The translations under genes and the position numbers were made by a program. The notes below the pieces were generated by a model that was not told where the DNA came from, did no database searches, and saw only the letters and a list, made by a program, of their open reading frames with translations. Of a stretch of DNA of 26,826 bases, positions 311 through 20,250 are shown piece by piece. Source of the DNA: Cochliopodium minus (lineage: Eukaryota; Discosea; Himatismenida; Cochliopodiidae); NCBI GenBank assembly GCA_024220525.1, contig JAMYWO010000007.1, positions 22,944 through 49,769 of the forward strand, read 5' to 3'. The stretch's first letter is position 1, and each line of letters starts with the position of its first letter.

Positions 311-464
311 CTGTTAAAATAAAAAAACATTTAAAAAATTTAAAAAATAAAGAAAAATAAAATTAAAATAATGAATAAATAAATAAATAAATTTTAATAT
401 TTTTTTATACCAGATTGAGAAGTAAGTAGTATATATTTGGGGGTTTGGCGTCACTCAATCAACT

Positions 465-2088: not shown

Positions 2089-4539
2089 GATTTCTTGTTT
2101 TTAGAAATTCCTTTCCTGTTCTTTGGATATTTCTTTTCAAATTCTTGAAGATATTTGGAAACCATCTTTATATTTGCAATCTGTCTTTCTTTCAACCATT
2201 TTGGAGATTCTGTTCTCTTCCCGTCTATAATGGTTTTAAAAGTAAATCCTCCATTTACCTTTTTGTGTTCCAAAATTTCCTCTATCAACCACTGTCCTTT
2301 CCTTGGAACAATGTTCACCTGATTATCGTTTCTATCGAAATCCAACGTGTTATTTTGCACATTGTTCTCGATTTTATCAGATGTATTATCATCCTTGTTC
2401 TGAATGTTTGAATCTCTTTTGTCTTTATCTCCATCATCACTGATATCTACCATATCAAGATCATTCTTCTTCCCCTTTCTTCCCTCTCCCTTCCTGCGGG
2501 CAATTAAAGGTAGTTTTTCTTTCTTGTTACGATTCTTCCACTTGGATAGGACTTCTTTACAATGGGATAATTCATCTTCATTTCTCCAAGAATCATTATC
2601 ATCTCCATAACCCTTCCTCTAAACAAATTTGGTGCTAGGATTAACCAATGTAACGATGTATTTGTTCCCATTCTTGCTTTCTCTCATTTCAAGTAAGTCC
2701 ACACATATTCTTCCATTTCCAATGGTAGGCTCCAACGGATGTAGCATTGGTTTGAAAGATTTCTTTCTCTTGTTCCTCTGATATATTTCGCAACATAAAA
2801 TGAATTCTTTGACGTCATCATAGTATCCAGGCCAGTAGAAACGGAATCTCAGAGCATCCATCGTCTTTTGAACACCTAGATGACCACTAGTAGGGTGAAG
2901 ATGGGCAAGTTTCAAAACCTCTTCTCTTTTGAACTTGTAAACGTAATTTCTAAGACCAGAGTTGAACTTCTTGTCTTTGTCTTTTAATTTTCTACACAGT
3001 TGTCCTCCCACAACGCAGAATTTGTCTTTTTGTTTACTACAAATGTCAACAATACCTTTGTGTAGATCGTAATCAACGTTTTTAGGTAATTTTCCACCTG
3101 TGAAAAGAGCTTTCATTACAACCTCGAAAACATCAATCAGATTGTGGTCAAGATTGTTAGGAGGGAAAGTCATATCTACTTTCTCATCCGTTTCCGCCAA
3201 GTCCACCTCAACAACCACCTTCTCTGTGTCATTCTTCACAGTGACAGGGCAACAATATTGAAAGAAAACTCATTATCTTTGTGAAAAATTGGTTCTTCAG
3301 GTTTTTGAATACCAGGCTTTTCACAAATGGAGTTCTAGTCAACATATCGCTCACATTCTTCTCTCCAGGAATATGTTCGATGAGGAAATTGTAGTTAATG
3401 ATGTAGAGGAGCCATCTGTACACCATAAACGAAGTATTTCCAAGTCTAGACAGGTCTGTCATCTTCGTGAGTGGTTTGTGATCAGAGTAAATTGTAAAAA
3501 ATTGACCAAAAGGAAGGAAATATTTGCAGTATTTAATCATGAAAACAATTGCAAAGAGTTCATTTTGAATTGTTGCCCACTTTAAGCTATCACCCGTGAA
3601 AGCTTTAGAGAAGAAAATGATTGGCAAATGTTTCTTTTCTGGATCCAACTGATACAAATAACCTCCGACACCGTAATCACTAGCATCACACATTATGAAA
3701 AACGCTTTCTCATAATCGGGTACATAACGATAAGCTTCATTTGTGATGGATTCGCAAACCCATTCAAGATCGGCTTGTAGTTCATCACTCCACGCAAACT
3801 TGACCAGTTTTGAAGTTAATGAATTGAACTGCAGTTTTCATTGCCAAGTATTTCTCCGAACAGGCAAATGTTATCAATTTGCCAAGTACTGACAATAATT
3901 GTGACCTACTAGCAACCCTAGTAGTGAGTTTCAAAGCTCCATGTCTTTCAGGATCATGTTTCAACCCTATGTCATCTCATATGACCAAGGAATTTAACCA
4001 CATTCCCGATTTGCACTTTCTTTACGTTAATTCCAACGTTATTTGCTTTGAAAGTGTTTAAAACTTCATCCAGCGTGTCCAATAATCCGTCAAAAGTGTT
4101 TCCTTCCACCATGAAATCATCCATGTAAATGACGAGATTCTTTTTGTTCTCAAACAAACTTGGAAGCCAGATGTTGCTAAAATGACTCGGAGATTCTTTT
4201 GTACCAAAAGACATCGTATTCTACATGTAAATCTCCCTGTCAGGACCATAGAAGCAAGAATTTGGTTTGCTGTCTTCAGTAAGTTCAATGTTGTGAAAAC
4301 CATCATTCATATCCAAAACAGCGAAAAACTTTGCTTCTGGGTTCATTTGGTTGATTTTATCTTGCACAGAATCTGTATCAGACTTTGTCTTGTTTGAGAC
4401 TTCGTTAAGCTTGTGATAGTCCATTACCATTCTAAATTGACCAGAACCAGGAGGACCTTTGTGGGCAAAATGAACGTTCGAGATACACTGAGCGTCCTTT
4501 ATGTTGATCACCTTCACTTTCAAATTCTTTTTCAACTCT
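2079..4539 (-). mobile_element. Ty3/gypsy LTR retrotransposon pol fossil (chromovirus-like)
   Basis: Minus-strand pol remains in Ty3/gypsy order. Reverse transcriptase lies at about 3970-4539, with the YMDD box and a VKFLGH-type motif. RNase H lies at about 3290-3690, with CDASDYGVGGYL, an IYSDHKPL-type motif and the HIPGEKNVSDMLTR tail. Next come the integrase H2C2 zinc-binding domain and the start of its core at about 2620-2960. A chromodomain-like C-terminus lies at about 2090-2330 (WLIEEILEHKKV...), followed by the polypurine tract and 3' LTR. The element is broken, with roughly four to six interruptions. It is cut off at the N at 4540, so gag, protease, the 5' LTR and the start of RT are not visible. 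Motifs are well preserved, suggesting moderate rather than great age. A more decayed relative lies at 24360-24590. Confidence 0.88.
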
Positions 4540-7500: not shown

Positions 7501-8536
7501 AATTATCAAATTAGCTTCCGAGGATGAACTTCCTTACAGAAATCTGGAGAAGATTGGAGAAGGAGCCAGTGGAGTTATATTTATTTGTTACGAGAAGGAC
7601 AAGGAGACTTCAAACAAGCTTGCTCTAAAAAAGATGTTGCCTGACAAAGAAAATACTCCTGAACTTATAGAGTCTGAGATTAAAATCATGAAAAGTTTCA
7701 AACACGCCAACATTGTTCGTTTCGTAAATTCCTTCCAGATCGATCTTTGTTATTATGTTTGTATGGAGTACATTGACGGTGGTTGTTTGACTGAAATTTT
7801 GGATGAGTTTGGTTCCATTGCCATGGATGAATCTCAAATCGCCTATGTTTGTAGAGAAATTTGCAAGGCTTTGAATTATGTTCACAAATTGAAAAGAATA
7901 CACAGAGATATAAAAAGTGAAAATGTAAAGATATTTTCAGTTTTATTTTTCTTATTTTTCTTATTTTTTCTTTTTTTTGTTTATTTTTTTGTTTATTTTT
8001 TTAAATTTTTTTATTTTTAAAATAGATTTTAGTTACCATGTCTGGAAATGTCAAATTAGCAGATTTCGGTTATACAGCACAATTAACTGCATCCAGAACA
8101 AAAAGAAATACCACAATCGGAACACCTGTAAATTTTACTTTTACATTTTTTATAATTCAATTTTCCTCATTTTTTTTTAAAGTATTGGATGTCTCCAGAA
8201 TTGATTAAAGGGCAAGATTATGATTACAAAGTAGATATCTGGTCTCTCGGAATAGTCGTGGTAGAAATGACCGAAGGAGAGCCTCCGTACCTCGACTTGG
8301 AACCTCTCAGAGCCCTCTTCCTCATTGTAACTAAAGGTTTGCCTGAATGGTCAGCTGATAATTGGTCGGAAGAATTGGAAGACTTTCTCATTATGTGTAC
8401 ACAGAAGGAACCAAAGAATAGACAAAGTTCCGCTGAGGCTTTGGTTCACCCTTTTTTGTCTAGGGCTTGTGAGAAAGAGGAGTTTGCTTCTCTTGTCATT
8501 GAGGCCAAGAAAATCAAGCTTGAAAGAGGATATTGA
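4545..8536 (+). CDS. VIT/vWFA-PH-CRIB-zinc ribbon-PAK-type kinase fusion (5' end missing)
   Basis: Exons: 4545-5121, 5181-5303, 5363-6516, 6566-7924, 8026-8127, 8183-8536. They join in frame to 1222 visible residues; 5' exons lie beyond the N at 4540. Visible order: end of a VIT-type domain (1-80), vWFA domain (about 86-275), C-terminal helical part, PH domain (513-606; [19 protein letters not shown]), CRIB (608-665; SAPNVVTHK then [16 protein letters not shown]), charged Lys/Glu/Pro linker, zinc ribbon C895-x2-C898-x11-C910-x2-C913, and a STE20/PAK kinase (about 940-1205). Kinase motifs are intact: [30 protein letters not shown]. One uninterrupted exon (5363-6516) carries both the vWFA tail and the PH domain, so the fusion is not a joining artefact. 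The vWFA metal site is degenerate. Likely a Rac/Cdc42-regulated kinase at membranes; the vWFA role is unknown. Confidence 0.9.
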
Positions 8537-8642: not shown

Positions 8643-10700
8643 ATGCCGCTCAAAATTTACTTTATTTCTTTTGGGTTCATTTTTTTGCTTTTTATCAATC
8701 TATCATCTTCCCAAAATACATCGAATAAAGCAAGGACATTGGAGATATTCTCCACATTAAATTATGGAAATGATTTTTGGCTTTATAAAGCAAAAGAGCA
8801 TTACAACGATAAGATTATACAAGCAAGAATAATGAAGAAAATAAAGATAAATGAGAATCTATTGCAAAATGGTAAAAGAATAGTTTGATATTAGTCAATA
8901 TAAAATTATTTTTAATATTTTCTTAGTTATTCCTATATTCCCTTTTTTGATACATGTTGAAAAGTATATTGAAACAGAAGGCGATACATTTGAGAGATGT
9001 TGCAATCAAGCATTGAAGGATTATTTGAAATCGAACAATCCAAATCAATTAAAGATAGAAACGATACCAGAGAACCTGGAAGTAGAAGAAGCATTGATAT
9101 CCTATCTGATAAACAATAATAAAGATATTAATCTGATAAATCTGTTCGATGATGAAGATAATAAAGGAGATGCAGTAGTATTAAACTTTATACGCAAAGA
9201 TGGTTTTGAAAAACTCGAACATGTCTTGCTTGAAATAAAATCATCAAACGAAACGATCAAGATAAATTCATTTGCTATAGATAGAGTAGATGAAAAGAGC
9301 TATTCATTAGCTTTGTCAACATTACTCTTCTTATTCACATTCTTTTTACCATTCGCATTGAGGAAGTTATCTAAAAATCATCCCCTTTCATTTCCTTCCG
9401 TTGTAGTTGAGATTGACATTCTTTATTTCAGATACACAAGTCCATGTCTCGGCTTTGTCACTTGTCTTCTCACTTTGTTTTTTCAATCATATTTCGTTGA
9501 CATCGGTTTTTTCTCTCCCGAAATCAACTCAAGTCTTAGTTTTTGGTGGTTCCCCATTTCATACATTGTGTTCACTACTTTGATAATTCCGTGCATTGTC
9601 TTGACAATGTTATCCATCAGATTCAATTTTGTAGATATTTTTTTTGAAAATTTTGTGTTTCCTTGGGTTTTGTTTGGATCAGGTATGGGATGTTTAGGTA
9701 ATAAATTTTTTTCATTTTTTTTTCATTTTTTTATTTTTTTTATTAATTTAAATTTTTTTTTATCGATTTCAGCATTTTTGTTTCATGCAAACCTTATTTT
9801 ATATGGAAGTTTTTCTATTTTTCTCTTTATCAGCAGCTTGTTCCTCATCACCTACTCTATCCTTTACGTAGGAAAAACAGTGAGTGATATCATAAAAGAA
9901 AAACCATCAAGAACCCTCTTTGAATTATTAGCAATAAATCTCATTTCCCTTTTGTCCACCCTCTCCTTCATCCTATGTTATCATCCAATAAGAGATCAAC
10001 ACTACATCCTTTATTTATTCTTCATTTCAAGTGTTCTTATCGTTTCTTTCTTGATTTTCGTTTCGTATTTGAAATCTCCAAAAGAAAACTACCATAATAT
10101 TTCTATGTCTGAGTCTCTCGACACCGATTTTTCAGATTTCAAGTCTTTGGAGGATATTCAAGATAGACTCATTTCGACAAACTGTTTACCTTTTGTTGGA
10201 CATAGTGTTGCTATCAAGAAGAGTATTCTAGAGCAATCTTTCGAAAGTTTCAAATTAGTAAATTTTTTTTTTTTAAATGAATTAAAAAATTTATCATTTT
10301 TTTTTTTTAAAAAAGGTGACAATTAAAGGTATTAGAGGATGTGGTAAATTAATTTTTTCTTATTTTTTTTTCAAATTTTTTATTTTTTTTTTTTAAAAGG
10401 AAAATCAAGATTAGTAAATGAATTGAAATCATCGAAACAATACCAAGTATTTATTGGAGACTCTAATGTTTCCATAAACGGGGATAGAGGAGTTGATAAA
10501 TGTACTCCATATGAGCCAATCAAAAACGTAAAATCAAATAAAACCAAAAAAAATTTAAAAGAGAATATAAAACAAAAAATAAAAACAAAATCATAAAAAA
10601 TGAAAATAAAAAATAAAAACGAAATCATAAAAAATAAAAAAAATAAAAAATAAAAAATAAAAAATAAAAAATAAAAAATAAAAAATAAAAAATAAAAAAT

Positions 10701-10737
<37 letters not shown>

Positions 10738-13700
10738 AAATAAAAAATAAATAAAAATAAAATAAATTTTTTTTTTTTAGGCAATTTCAAAGATAGTGGG
10801 TATTGGAAGGTTTCAGTCCACAAAAGAACAAATTGACATTTTGAATAAATTGACAGAAATAGCCTCAGATAGCTCTGGAATTTCTTTCATTTTTGGCACT
10901 TCAGAGAACGACAGCTCTGAATCTCCTGTAGATGTTTCCTTTCTTGCTTCATCAATTTTAAATTCTATTCAAAAGTACATCAATACCAAGTCAAAAAAAA
11001 TTATGATCATTTTAGAAGGTAAAAATTTGGGAATATTGTTTACTATTCATTTTAATCATTAAAATGTATTTTGTAATTTTAGATATGGAAGCTTCAGATT
11101 CTAGTTCTCAATCACTTTTAATTCAAATGACGAGAATATGTGCATCTTCTCCAAGAGTGTACAAAAAAAATATTTTTTCTTTTTTAAAATTTTAATTTTT
11201 TTTTTGTCAAAAGATATCCTTTTACCCTTGTAATCGTTGAAAGGGTAGCTACTTCTAATACTCCACACAGTGAATGGATAGAAAAGTGTATAGACATAGC
11301 AACCAACTCTCACAGTCTTTCTTGCTCTTTGAAACCTTTCTCAACAGAAAATATAGAAGAGATCTTGGAGAAATTCTCTTTTTCAAACTCTTTCGTTCAA
11401 TCGAACTCTTCGAAAATTCATGTCCAATCTAATGGAAACCCTCTCAATGTTCTACTCATTCTAAAACACATTTGTAACAAAGATTTCTTAGAAATATCTC
11501 AAAGTGGATACACTTTTTGCCACGGAAGTAAACTAATTTTTTTTTTAAATTTTTTTTTAATTTTTTTTTAAAAAAAATTGTTTAGTTACATTTGAAAAAA
11601 TAAGACTTCCTTCAGGTAAAAATTCAATCAAAAAAAAACTACGTATAAAATAATTTTTTTTTTTTTTTTTAGAAATGATTGATCAGATGGTGGAACAGTT
11701 GAAACAAGTGGACGAGAAAATGATCAACATCTTGATTTGTGCTTCCCAAATAGGTTTCATTTTCGAGGAGAAGCTGATCGCCAAATCCATGCACATACCT
11801 GTTCTAAAAGTTAGTCAAAAACTGTTTCACATTCAAAATAAATGGGGAATAATAGCAGATTTAAGAGACGAAGACTGTAAAAAAAAATGATTTATTCTTT
11901 TTTTTATTTTTTATTTTCTTATTTTTATCATTTTTATAATTATTTTTTATTGTTTTATTTTATTTCGTTTTTTATCATTTTATTTTTTTTATTAGCCAAT
12001 AGTGTTTTTATTTTTATTTTAACTTATTTTATTTCATATAGATTATTTTTTATAGTTTTGTTTTTATCATTTTATTTTTTATGTTAGGCAATGGTGTTTA
12101 TAAATTTGTTAATGCCAATTACATTGAAGCAGTTTACAAATATACATTCAACAAATCTTCCTTGTTTTCCGACTCCAAATTCATTCCTCAGCTAATCAAA
12201 CAGTACAACTCTCAACTAAGTTATTCTTTGGAAGAGATTTTGAAAAAGGGAGATGGAAACAGCGAAAAAGTATACAAGCTTTCTGATTACTCTCATATTG
12301 CAGGTCTTTCTAAAATTTGTTTCGAGTATTCTTTTAAAAGGTAAATTATTTTCTTTTTAAAAATGCTAATTGTCAAATTTTCAAAGACAATACATAATAA
12401 AATTAAAATAAAATAAAATCATTAAATTGAATATAATAAAAAATAAACAAAACAAAAATTAATTTTTAAAACTTTATTTTTCATTTTAGTGCATTTATTG
12501 CTTGTAGTAATTGGTCGTTTAAAGAATGCTTAATTTATGCCGAAAGAGGTATTTTTTATTAAATATTTTTTATTGATTATTACTTAATTAATTTAAGCAA
12601 TCGAGATTGGCATTAAAATGGGAATCAAGAAACACAGAGTCAAACAAAAAAATTTCATAGAAGATGTACAAGAAAAAGACAAGAATTTCTCCGAAGATAA
12701 TTCAGAAAATTTCTACAATATATGTATCCTATGTGCTAAAATGTACTTGAATATAGATGTTTGAAAAAATTTTTTTCTTTTTTAATTTACTTTATTTTTA
12801 TTTTATTTTATTTCTTTTTTTAACTTTCTTTTAAATTTTTATTTCTGTTTTATTTTTCTTTATTTTTTTAAAAAGCCTTTCACAATGAACAATAAAGTTG
12901 TGAGTGTTCTGACACATTTAGAAGACACCGACCAAGTTTTGATTTTGAGATCTCTTGCGTTTTCTTACCAAGGAAAATTTGAAGATTCCCTCAAAATAGC
13001 CACTCCACTTCTCACCTACAAAGAAAACGATCCAAATAGTAGTTGGGTGGTAGGGTAAAGAAAAATTTTTTTAATTTTTTTATGTTTTATTTTATTTCTT
13101 ATTTAATTATTTCATATTTTAAAGTAATGCTGCTTGGAGTTGTTTGTATGCAAATTTCAGATCAAACAATAATGAGTCAATGAAAAATTGTTTGTATATT
13201 GCAGATGACGCAGAAAAAATTCTTGAAAAGCATAACAACGATAAAAACTTGATGCAAATTTTGGCCAAAATAATTAATGTCAAAGGTTTTCAATTTATTT
13301 TAAATATTTTCTTATTATTTAAATATATTGTTTTGTTTATTTTTTTTTGTAAAAAAGGAATGATTCAATACCATCTTTCGGATTTTAAAAGTGCAGAAAA
13401 AAATTATTTGAAATCATTTGATCTAAATGAAAAGACAGGTAATCCATTGGGAAAAGCAATTTGTTGTGGTTTATTGGTAATTATTTACATTATTTTTTTC
13501 AAAAATTTTTTTAATTTTTTAAAAGGCAAGACTTTATAAATCTTACGGTGAACAAGCTACAGAGGAGCACTCAAAGGTTGAAAATTACAACAAGGCTCTT
13601 GATTTTTTCAAGAAAAATGAATCCATCTCCATCAACGTAGACAGTATCTTTGGGGTTGTTGTCATACCATATTCCGTAAAAAAATTCTTTCGAGAATAAA

Positions 13701-14135
13701 AAATTTTTCATATAAATTATATATTTTTATATTTTTAATTTATTATTTTAAATATTAATTTATTCTTTAATCATTAATTTTAATTTATTTTTTTTTGAAT
13801 AGATTTCAGAAATTTATTATAGATTGGGAGATTTAAAAAATTCGGAAATTTATTCTATTACTGCCAAACAAAGGTGTATCAAGCACAACTATTTCATGGA
13901 CATCCACATCCAGAGCGGAGCCCTCTTGATCGAACTCAACCTCCAAAACCAAAAGATGAAAGAAGCCGAGAAAGAAATGAGTGAGACCATAAATTTTATT
14001 CTTAACAAGAAGAAAGAAAAGTTTATCAATGCTGACAACTCTGTTTCCTTGAAACGTTTGAGAGATTATGTTTTGTACAATAAGTTGGATTTCCCAAAAC
14101 TTATTGAAGCTATTGATGTTGCTATTGGAAAGTAG
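8643..14135 (+). CDS. Seven-span membrane protein with STAND (AAA_16) NTPase and TPR-like tail
   Basis: Exons: 8643-8871, 8927-9697, 9773-10257, 10316-10343, 10400-10527, 10781-11018, 11083-11158, 11214-11527, 11586-11615, 11673-11876, 12088-12340, 12490-12548, 12598-12758, 12876-13054, 13125-13285, 13358-13476, 13526-13675, 13803-14135; 1305 residues, every junction in frame. Signal peptide 1-23 and an ectodomain to about 200 come first. About seven hydrophobic spans follow (near 202-221, 247-267, 283-305, 316-338, 345-367, 383-405, 412-432). A cytosolic NTPase starts at LPFVGH (472): Walker A GIRGCGKS 500-507, Walker B IMIILED 621-627 followed by MEASDSSSQSLL, then LKPFSTENIEEIL and SNGNPLNVLL, typical of AAA_16/STAND ATPases. 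A winged-helix-like part (ICASQIGFIFEEKLI, YKFVNANYIEAVY) and helical TPR-like repeats follow. No cyclase or kinase domain is present. Probably a receptor or sensor with an intracellular STAND switch; ligand unknown. Confidence 0.82.
10556..10766. repeat. A-rich 7-bp tandem repeat inside an intron
   Basis: The intron 10528-10780 of the seven-span/STAND gene consists mostly of A-runs broken by single T. From about 10630 the T recurs every seven bases for roughly 15 units (AAAAAAT). Long A-tract phasing like this can bend or stiffen DNA and is prone to slippage in replication and assembly. No coding content; apparent Phe-rich minus-strand reading frames here are artefacts. Confidence 0.8.
11967..12102 (+). 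repeat. Partial tandem duplication covering a 3' splice site
   Basis: The segments starting at 11967 and 12059 match closely over about 44 bases: gttttttatcattttat..., ending attagccaatagtg in the first and gttaggcaatggtg in the second. The unit offset is 92 bp. The second copy holds the acceptor of exon 11 (12088) of the STAND gene and the exon's first bases. The first copy therefore carries a decoy acceptor (attag at about 11995) and a decayed copy of the exon start, which soon runs into a stop. Confidence 0.6.
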
Positions 14136-14245: not shown

Positions 14246-15517
14246 ATGACTTCTCATCAAATGAAAATATGTATTCTTGGAGGTAATTTTATTTGATTTT
14301 ATATTCTCCTTGTGATTTCATTTGTATGATTTATAAAAAGGAATATCCGTTGGGAAAACTGGTACCTGATATTTCTCAAAATTATTCATTTTTTAAATTC
14401 TCCAATCCTATTAGCGATGTCAATCAAATTCATATCAGGTAATCCCTACAACGAAAAAAAAAATTTATATATTTAAGAAAATTATTATCATTTTTTTTAA
14501 AAAGGTCAATTTCTTGATCAATATGATCCCACAATTGGTATCTTTCTCCATCTAATTTCAATTAAAATTCATCCAATAATTTTTTATTGAACAGAGGATA
14601 GTAAGAAAATATGAAAATTTATTCTGTAATTCTGATTTATTGGGATATTGATAGGTTATACTAGGTATCTCTGCTCTTTATTTTTTTGTTCGTTCAACAA
14701 TTATTCAAAATTTAAATTCAATTACGCCTATTTTCCATATTAGAAACATGGATATCGATAATATTCCTTGTGTGATCAACATACAAGATACTTCAGGTCA
14801 AGATGAATTTCTATTGTTGAGATCAGGTAAAATAAATAAAATTCTATCACTAAAAACCACAACTAGTTTTAATTAATCAATACACAATAAATGTTCTTTG
14901 ATTACACAATCAAATATTTTATATTAACTAGATAAAATTTAAAAATAATTTTATTTGACAATTTTTTTAGACATGTCCAAATTTACAACTTTGTTAGTGG
15001 ATATTAATTTATAACCAACAAATTTTGAACTGTAAAGTTTTACAATTTTTTCACAATATCAAAAAATTTTTGGGCTCAATTAATTTTTTTCGAAAGCCTG
15101 TTTTAATTATTTTTTTTTTAATAAGGATGGATCAATGAATCAGATGCATTCATTTTAGTTTATTCAATTGACAACCAGAAATCATACAATGAAATCACCA
15201 ATATCTACCAAGATGTCATGAAAGTCAAACAAAAAAAGCAGATTATTGCTTTGGCAGCTAACAAATGTGACATCCAAAAGAGATCAGTCTCCAAAGAAAA
15301 AGGACTTGAACTTTCAAAAAAATTTTCATTGGAATATTTTGAATGTTCTGGTAAAAAAATCATTTTTATATTTTTTTTTTAATTTTTATTTTTTTGATCA
15401 GCCAAAGACAATGTTAATATTGAATGCATATTTGTTTATTGTGCTAGAGAAATCAGGAAGTACAGAAGCGAAAATATGAGTGTCAACAAAAATAAGGGAA
15501 TCTGTAATTTGTTATGA
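14246..15517 (+). CDS. Ras-family small GTPase with CAAX tail
   Basis: Exons: 14246-14282, 14341-14361, 14415-14438, 14505-14537, 14595-14600, 14655-14664, 14744-14826, 15126-15350, 15402-15517. They join in frame to 184 residues, the usual Ras length. G motifs: P-loop GGISVGKT (12-19), switch I YDPTIEDSY (34-42, identical to the classical Ras effector loop), DTSGQDEF (59-66) with the catalytic Gln63, NKCD, and ECSAK. The C-terminus CNLL is a CAAX box whose final Leu favours geranylgeranylation, so membrane attachment is expected. Two exons are only 6 and 10 nt long. P-loop positions matching Ras Gly12 and Gly13 are Ile14 and Ser15, an odd pair; Rheb has Arg-Ser there. Intron 7 (299 nt) is unusually long. 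Subfamily (Ras, Rap or Rheb-like) is not resolved. Confidence 0.93.
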
Positions 15518-17956: not shown

Positions 17957-20250
17957 TTATCTTTTAAAAGAAACAAAACCAAAAAGGCTGCTCAAGCCAG
18001 ACTTCAAAGTACCAAAAAAACTCTTCTTTGGAACGTTTGTACCTGCCTTGATGATCTCACTAGCTTGGTTGCCATTTAACTTTGGATACATCATCTTGAG
18101 ATCTTCATAATTCATGATCTTTTGGTGGGCTTTCTTTTGGTAGGAGCGATCTACATAGCAGATTGCTTCCTTCTCTACGATCCAGTTGTCGTCTTCTTTG
18201 TATAACTTCAAATTTTTTCTTTCATTGTAAGCAACACTATCATTTTTCCTAAAATAGAAATTCAAAATTAAAATGAAACAGATTCAAGTTTAACATTTAA
18301 ATTTTTACATAAGATTTTTGAGGGTAAGGTTGATAAGATCCCTCCATTGAGATGCTTGGGAAGAACCTCTCTGTGCTTTCATTGTTCTCTGTCCAGAAGG
18401 AGAAACCAAAACTAACAAAGAAGGGTCTTTGTCTTTCAAAAAAAAAAATGAATACAAAAATAATAAAAAGGTATAATTGAAATACCTTGGACAATGAACA
18501 AAGAGTGAATTTCTATTATAGTATCAACCAACAAAGAATCTTCATTTTCTTCGTCTTTGAATGCGATAATAAAATACTCCTCTAACAAGAAGCAGAAATA
18601 CTCCTCTATGAAAAGCTCGTTCTCGTCATCAAAATTCTCTTCATAGAAGACATCTTCCTGGATGAGCTTTCTTGCTCTGTCTTTGAGTATCTCCTCTCTA
18701 CAACTCTTGTCAAATCTCATTATCAGACCAGAGAAACCTTCTTTTTGATGAACCTAAATGTAATAAATGAAATTTAATTATTTATTTTCGATTTGAAATT
18801 TCAAAAAAATTTTTTTTACCAGGTTAATTGATTGATTGATTTGCTTGCAGATGTTTTCTGTGACTTCTACGCTCTTCTCTAGGCAGCTGTAGTCGGGATG
18901 GTCGATGCTTGTGTACTTGAAAATGGATTGAAACAAAAGAGGATAGCGTGTAATTCTTTGTGCAGGGAGAACCAACAAAGATTGCTTTAATATAAACAAT
19001 CAATATGATAAGATATAATTTGATAATAGGAATGAATTATATTTGAAGAAATTTGTAAAAAAATATTATATTTTGGAGGAAATTTCTTTTTATACCAAAG
19101 TATAGAAGGTTTGTTTCTTCTCATTTGCAAGTTTTCTTAGCTTGGAATTGAAAATATTTCCGATATTCTTCATCACTTTCTCATTTTTGGAGAGATATTC
19201 GATATAGATTTTGAGGAAGGGAGATACCTTTGGAATAACATCTCCAATCATCAGATTTTCGTTGTCATCTTTGCATTTGTCGAATCTTTCTCTGAAATTC
19301 TCATAGATCTGCCTGTTAAGCTCATAGATGGATTCAATATTTGAGAACACTTGATTGATCTCTTCTTCATTCATTATCTTCCTCTTTCTTATTGGAATAA
19401 TGAAGTCATTTATCAAAGTTTTCAATTGATCGACATAGATCTTTTCTGAATTGAGTAATTCTTTGACAGAACTGATTCTCTTTTTCAATCTATTGTTGAT
19501 TCAAATGGGTATATGAAAAACATGATAATAAAAAAAATGAACTTTATTACCTTGAATTATGAAAGTTATTTTCATAATTTAGATGGTCCACGTTATACAA
19601 ATTTGTGCATCTTCCTGGTATATATCCAAATTGTTCATATATTTCTACATACCACCATCCCGATGAATCTATCTGAAGGATCTTTGCGTTTTCTCCAATA
19701 AAGCATGACAATTCATTCTCTCCTCCTGATTTGAAGTTCTCTATGATGGTGGATATTTGATTTATTGGCTCATTTATCTTGTCAAAATTGGGTTCATAAT
19801 CAATCTCTTTTTCGAATATTCTTTATTTTGGAATAATTTCAATTTTTTTATTTGAAAGAGATTATTATTACCTTTCTATGTTTTGATTCTTGAATTCCAA
19901 TTCAAATTTCTTTATTTTTTCTGTTACTTTTGCCTTTGTTCATTGTTTATAATTTTAATTTCAAAGATATTTTTGGAAAATAAAGTTACGTTTCTGCAAA
20001 ATCTTTTAACATGGTACATTCTTCTTAGTCTTTCTGCAACTAATGGATCTTCTTTTATGTTATAAATTTCTTCCTCTTCTTTGTCATCCTCTTCTTTAGT
20101 TAATACTTTCTCATTTCTAATTGATTCCACAAATTTCTTTTCTTTTTGTTGGATTATTTGTTTATTACTTGTAATCTTTTGATTCTTGAAATTCAATTTG
20201 TTGTTCAAATCAATGTTCAATTGATTTGGTTTTGTATTCTCTTTATTCAT
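17957..20250 (-). CDS. SH3-DH-PH Rho guanine nucleotide exchange factor
   Basis: Exons on the minus strand: 20250-19990, 19933-19872, 19820-19551, 19489-19096, 18984-18820, 18753-18486, 18432-18309, 18248-17957; 611 residues in frame. Residues 1-107 are charged and helical (KEEDDKEEEEIYN..., AERLRRMYHVKRF). An SH3 domain follows at about 132-187 (ELSCFIGENAKILQID, GWWYVEI, FGYIPG). The DH domain spans about 198-385, starting ISSVKELLNSEKIYVDQL and carrying the hallmark LLVLPAQRITRYPLLFQSI. A PH domain (385-514) follows and ends SQWRDLINLTL. The Ser/Lys/Phe-rich tail ends GFVSFKR. It should catalyse GDP-GTP exchange on Rho/Rac-type GTPases at membranes, with SH3 recruiting Pro-rich partners. 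It converges with the nuclease gene (144 bp apart) and diverges from the MTMR14 gene. A Rac-binding PAK kinase lies 9 kb away. Confidence 0.92.

Follow-up and report, generated by a model that had tools for sequence, protein, structure and literature searches.

Within a 26,826-nucleotide stretch of the Cochliopodium minus genome (GenBank assembly GCA_024220525.1, contig JAMYWO010000007.1, positions 22,944 to 49,769 of the forward strand; hereafter the window, numbered from its first letter), we found a gene that joins seven predicted membrane spans directly to a STAND NTPase module. We tentatively read its product as a membrane receptor with seven spans and a cytoplasmic tail that would consist of an ADCY10/MalT-like STAND switch and TPR-like helices, a reading that we prefer but hold with reserve. 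If it is correct, a membrane receptor would rely on the type of nucleotide switch known from NLRs and ADCY10-type cyclases. The single chain would also let one ask whether a membrane signal sets the STAND switch or the reverse.

One gene from the membrane part to the STAND module

Reconstruction from splice signals yielded a plus-strand gene at 8643-14135 with 18 exons, 17 GT-AG introns and a product of 1305 amino acids (aa), which confirms the coordinates and exon number of the original prediction (Table 1). The gene lies on a 354 kb contig; the assembly comprises 44.65 Mb in 598 contigs. Codon usage was learned from 3480 codons of other genes. By this measure, the chosen frame scored highest in 18 of 18 exons, as expected from the claim that all exons keep frame, with a margin of only 0.02 bits per codon in exon 1. 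The codon score was -0.07 bits per codon for aa 1-440 versus 0.17 for aa 441-1305, and the low value of the membrane half is what its hydrophobic composition would give. GC content was 0.27-0.39 in exons and 0.06-0.17 in introns. The intron at 9698-9772 could also be read as coding, its frame being open, yet it was kept as an intron at a GC content of 0.09; the frame continues either way. Intron 5 holds an A-rich microsatellite of AAAAAT-type units (10590-10770).

The link between the membrane part and the STAND module is carried by exon 3, which encodes the end of span 4, spans 5-7, a linker of 40 aa and the start of the AAA_16 region without a break; no stop interrupts the frame 8884-10326 through exons 2 and 3. 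Because spans 5-7 and the N-terminal box of AAA_16 share this open exon, a split into two genes after the last span and before Walker A (10070-10316), the outcome that the original prediction had named as speaking against it, is excluded by the DNA sequence unless an internal promoter exists. Such a split would also deprive the first gene of a stop codon. Since the linker is so short, neither a cyclase nor a kinase would fit between the spans and the STAND part, and Pfam gave no match to class III cyclase domains ahead of the latter.

In all six hydropathy runs (three scales and two author-chosen thresholds each, without control proteins or a dedicated topology predictor), the protein showed an N-terminal hydrophobic segment followed by seven spans at the same positions within aa 203-433. 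Of the proposed signal peptide, ectodomain and about seven spans, the spans stand as predicted, and the start is signal-peptide-like. In four of the six runs, one or two further segments at 783-803 and/or 1179-1196, in the winged helix and the TPR part, were hydrophobic as well. Lys and Arg residues number 3, 1 and 4 in the presumed inside loops and 3 in the tail, versus 0, 0 and 1 outside; together with the signal-peptide-like start, these loop charges fit a putative N-out/C-in orientation. The charge pattern and the frame test are informal arguments against spans that arise spuriously from T-rich sequence. Pfam gave no credible family for the ectodomain and spans.

In the STAND module, Walker A, the Walker B acids, Arg, GNP and the winged helix (aa 764-856) appear in the expected order. 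Walker A follows the GxxxxGK[ST] pattern and is assembled from the 28-base exon 4 and the beginning of exon 5. Pfam matched AAA_16 at an E value of 1.6e-6 (29.1 bits, under the curated 32.6). Protein searches covered 7997 candidates sharing most words with the query, a set whose uncertain eukaryote coverage means that absence says little: the whole protein found none at E 0.01, and the STAND region gave three weak matches only, to the bacterial proteins P0001, P0002 and P0003 (E values 0.11, 0.43 and 8.0), the best being named 'predicted ATPase/class 3 adenylate cyclase'. Going by Pfam accessions, we take their N-terminal parts to be a cyclase, a kinase and a regulator-type module, respectively.

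P0001-P0003 together contain four STAND modules. A profile built from these, aligned without the window protein, matched aa 472-852 over 360 columns (hhalign, E 1.7e-13), compared with E values of 0.051 for the best of five shuffles, 0.42 for the reversed sequence and 0.72 for the seven-span part; the test is mildly circular, its members having been found with the window protein as query. A second profile, of five relatives with the row of the window protein removed (its rows had earlier been co-aligned with that protein), scored 73.9 bits, whereas none of 200 shuffles exceeded 9.2. NCBIfam gave a single match (E 0.17) and PADLOC two (E 0.0025-0.0026), the latter on the Walker A stretch only. 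Judged from the profile comparisons, the STAND part is homologous to AAA_16 / ADCY10-MalT-like STANDs. The earlier assignment of an AAA_16/STAND module with Walker A and B, a winged-helix-like segment and canonical motif order is borne out by the Pfam match, the alignment and hhalign.

The C-terminal 432 aa matched TPR_12 at E 2.3e-5 (24.9 bits, under the cut-off of 30.1), in line with the proposed TPR-like tail. Pfam found no enzyme domain in the 1305-aa protein, which agrees with the claim that the chain has no enzymatic effector.

Table 1. Features of the gene, in window coordinates.
Feature	Position	Strand	Basis or remark
Start and stop of gene	ATG at 8643; stop ends 14135	+	splice reconstruction
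Exons 1-6	8643-8871, 8927-9697, 9773-10257, 10316-10343, 10400-10527, 10781-11018	+	
Exons 7-12	11083-11158, 11214-11527, 11586-11615, 11673-11876, 12088-12340, 12490-12548	+	
Exons 13-18	12598-12758, 12876-13054, 13125-13285, 13358-13476, 13526-13675, 13803-14135	+	
Signal-peptide-like segment, aa 1-23	8643..8711	+	hydropathy; cleavage site by inspection
Ectodomain, aa 24-202 (~180 aa)	8712..9303	+	contains intron 8872-8926
Seven membrane spans (predicted)	9304..10068	+	hydropathy; intron 9698-9772 within span 4
Spans in aa	203-222, 249-270, 285-307, 318-338, 341-366, 383-404, 411-432		
Exon 3	9773-10257	+	AAA_16 start LPFVGHS, aa 472-478
STAND NTPase module, aa 472-856 (AAA_16 core, GNP motif, winged helix)	10186..12152	+	Pfam, hhalign, alignment
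Walker A GIRGCGKS, aa 500-507	10328..10407	+	split by intron 10344-10399, phase 1 of G505
Walker B IMIILED (E626, D627)	11000..11087	+	split by intron 11019-11082
Sensor-1-like Arg662 (VIVER)	11242..11244	+	alignment
G726-N727-P728	11434..11442	+	invariant, six-row alignment
TPR-like C-terminal region, aa 880-1305	12222..14135	+	joins 12759 and 13286 use GTTT donors

An ADCY10-type gene in the same genome

The genome also holds an ADCY10-type gene (contig C155, about 40.5-47.4 kb), which was found via Pfam and not with the window protein as query. RCC1 repeats precede its cyclase part, in which a second cyclase domain was recognised by eye, and a STAND follows, in which a 15-base microexon splits Walker A. 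The first cyclase exon resembles ADCY10 structures in sequence (E 3e-9), and neither of the two presumed cyclase exons has a Pfam cyclase match. Its STAND fits the bacterial STAND profile at E 1.2e-29. Compared directly, the two STANDs aligned weakly over 336 columns (hhalign, probability 3.6%, E 0.012), and phmmer scored the pair at 13.7 bits, versus at most 6.2 in 200 shuffles.

Both proteins carry AAA_16, GNP and the winged helix in the same order, whereas the window protein has a signal segment, an ectodomain and seven spans where the cyclase stands, and Asn in place of the winged-helix His. One intron is common to the two genes, at the last Gly of Walker A, in the same alignment column and phase. 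With 8 versus 6 introns over 391 aligned columns, at least one exact match occurs in 4% of random placements. The shared intron weakly suggests common descent of both STANDs within this lineage. As to how the window gene arose, the comparison lends weak support to a cyclase part replaced by the membrane part, or to a STAND moved behind the membrane part.

When the whole protein, the STAND and the seven-span part were searched in their own genome, with the best candidates scored, only the gene's own exons were recovered. The genome has a large NACHT family in long open frames, with 40 matches, 25 of them over the cut-off (two being adjacent pieces on one contig). No run of spans was seen in the 12 of the 40 loci that were inspected (about 3.4-3.5 kb each, longest frame only); eight of the 12 showed one to three hydrophobic peaks, among which, in six of the eight, was a helix with an S..LC..P pattern by eye. 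Several NACHT frames open with a caspase/CHAT-like stretch, also by eye. Elsewhere, a single 1940-aa frame (contig C1, 261696-266636) holds five guanylate/adenylate cyclase matches, which score nearly alike and are spaced at about 1.1 kb; it is an array of tandem cyclase domains.

Alternatives and the direction of signalling

The observations that weigh against the receptor reading concern the gene model, both halves of the protein and the order of its parts. The model derives from genomic sequence alone, and the architecture is known from one genome. Nevertheless, it is highly improbable that a membrane protein and a STAND gene unrelated to it were joined by an artefact of the gene model or the assembly, as spans 5-7 and the AAA_16 start lie in frame in one exon, on a contig of 354 kb, and the chosen frame is best in every exon. 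Some splice sites are weak. The acceptor before 11586 (join of exons 8 and 9) is outscored by 75 of 269 AGs, and two of the 17 donors, GTTTGA at 12759 and GTTTTC at 13286, are outscored by 169 and 158, respectively, of the 203 GTs of the gene. Both donors sit in the TPR part (joins of exons 13-14 and 15-16) and lead to typical acceptors (14 of 269 AGs higher each). For comparison, all seven donors used in the STAND part of the ADCY10-type gene start with GTA, for which they were partly chosen.

The GTTTGA donor bears on a division at the C-terminal end, in which the seven-span-STAND gene would end behind exon 13, at the in-frame TGA 12762-12764, with a separate TPR gene beginning at ATG 12885. 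The 120-base gap between them would resemble the gaps of 106 and 110 bases that flank the whole gene. However, the acceptor before 12876 is among the typical ones, the gap has an intron-like GC content of 0.09, TPR tails are usual in such STANDs, and another non-GTA donor (13286) is required anyway, so that we consider this division quite unlikely. In either case, the fusion of the spans to the STAND is independent of whether the TPR tail beyond aa 992 is a second gene.

Within the STAND module, Asn843 replaces a winged-helix His that is found in all five aligned relatives, the Walker B stretch lacks a W present in four of the five, and a sequence search against PDB returned no relative at E 10. 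In NLRs, a His near this winged-helix position contacts ADP. We did not treat the His as family-defining and regard Asn843 as a departure, with which an altered resting state is possible. These two differences, together with the AAA_16 score (29.1 bits, where the ADCY10-type STAND in this genome reaches 64.8), would also suit a degenerate STAND that does not switch and, with the TPRs, forms a membrane-tethered docking platform. This seems unlikely: Walker A, the acidic pair of Walker B, the Arg and GNP are all retained, and the STAND part has normal in-frame codon usage.

The seven-span part matched no 7TM receptor family in Pfam at E 10, where filters drop most weak matches, and under the same settings the 7TMR-DISM family was not among the matches. 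It found nothing meaningful in PDB, and none of 1590 word-sharing candidates in the protein search reached E 10 or better. Because a family match is lacking, receptor function rests on topology, and 'seven-span receptor-like' and 'GPCR-like' (G-protein-coupled-receptor-like) are to be taken as statements about predicted topology only; what remains of the originally proposed GPCR-like membrane part is its seven spans. A by-eye resemblance to class C GPCRs near span 2 was dropped, as Pfam did not confirm it; elsewhere in the genome, one class C-type match exceeds the cut-off. Receptors of seven-span topology have possible G-protein partners in this genome, because 78 exon-level matches to G-alpha reached an E value of 0.001 or lower; the weaker ones may belong to other GTPases.

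In proteins that combine a cyclase, kinase or regulator with a STAND and TPRs, the N-terminal part serves as output, a point in favour of signalling in the reverse direction. The STAND-TPR tail would then be the intracellular sensor, and the seven spans would replace the cyclase as output, through G-protein activation or an inside-gated conductance. The spans indeed take the chain position of the cyclase or kinase in P0001, P0002 and the ADCY10-type gene, the shared Walker A intron hints at common STAND descent (chance about 0.04 under uniform placement), and the STAND-TPR arm of ADCY10-type proteins is held to act on its cyclase. However, the signal-peptide-like start and the 180-aa ectodomain resemble an input part, and the intron coincidence is a single site. 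We regard reverse flow as doubtful; the sequence does not decide between it and outside-in signalling.

If the protein works as the receptor that we prefer, its ectodomain or seven-span bundle would sense an outside signal, and movement of span 7 would be transmitted through the linker to the AAA_16 core, where ATP binding is predicted. Nucleotide exchange and then winged-helix opening would follow, and the opened STAND-TPR arm may self-associate or bind partners at the membrane. A more specific version, which strikes us as somewhat unlikely, is a ligand-gated, NLR-like surface receptor whose seven-span sensor would drive nucleotide-dependent opening and clustering of the STAND-TPR arm without a G protein or enzyme, built from a 7TM part placed before an ADCY10-type STAND.

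Known systems and neighbouring loci

Our comparison with published systems was a term search of the main texts of PMC5784254, PMC12716839, PMC11550330, PMC8195603, PMC12909245 and PMC11797021. In addition, a literature search for 7TM proteins with STAND, NACHT, NB-ARC or AAA_16 found no such protein named in titles and abstract openings. A seven-span part joined directly to a STAND switch is thus without a published example in the searches made. The GPCR-bigrams of oomycetes and other microbial eukaryotes comprise GPCR-PIPK, -TKL, -INPP, -AC, -PDE and AP-GPCR, with an aspartic protease (PMC5784254). As described there, they likewise place seven spans before a cytoplasmic signalling module in a single chain (in reversed order in AP-GPCR). 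Their accessory domains are catalytic, whereas the window protein has a STAND switch and a 7TM part of no recognised family. AAA, ATPase and NACHT occur neither in the main text of this catalogue (PMC5784254) nor in that of a choanoflagellate GPCR survey, and the receptor-effector fusions of microbial eukaryotes in the main texts cited here carry enzymes. For what the original prediction called a 'new kind of sensor', one chain with seven spans and a STAND is borne out and the sensor role is putative; the protein is better classed as a novel form of receptor-effector fusion.

The STAND profile of P0001-P0003 matches the window protein as detailed above, whereas their N-terminal modules differ from it, and they are weak single matches only. 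Bacterial 7TMR-DISM receptors resemble it in having an ectodomain, seven spans and an intracellular module; the modules themselves differ. As a rule STAND proteins are soluble, as the original prediction says, yet examples linked to membranes have been published. Sponges have NLRs with transmembrane domains, in a passage that gives no span number (PMC12909245), and an oyster family combines an ectodomain, one transmembrane helix, DED and TRADD-N with a variable C-terminal part that may hold a STAND (PMC8195603). These proteins share with the window protein a STAND (in some oyster members) with one or more membrane segments and, in the oyster, an ectodomain. Unlike the window protein, the oyster family continues from its one helix into DED and TRADD-N, and the sponge and oyster passages describe no seven spans.

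Upstream of the gene lies a PH-CRIB-kinase (PAK-like) gene, whose last frame ends at 8536, and the downstream neighbour, which starts with an ATG at 14246, looks by eye like a Ras-type GTPase. An exon on the minus strand at 19090-19500 encodes a RhoGEF domain (E 2.2e-22). The neighbourhood is thus rich in small-GTPase signalling (PAK-like, Ras-like, RhoGEF). Towards the start of the window, two overlapping minus-strand frames at 857-1721, one of which weakly matches Capsid_N (PF16903, E 0.016, below the cut-off), are possibly the remnant of a capsid gene. Near these capsid-like frames, adjacent minus-strand frames at 2619-3837 encode an RT-type RNase H (E 6e-24) and an integrase H2C2 zinc domain (E 7e-19) and are what is left of a retroelement or another mobile element like it.

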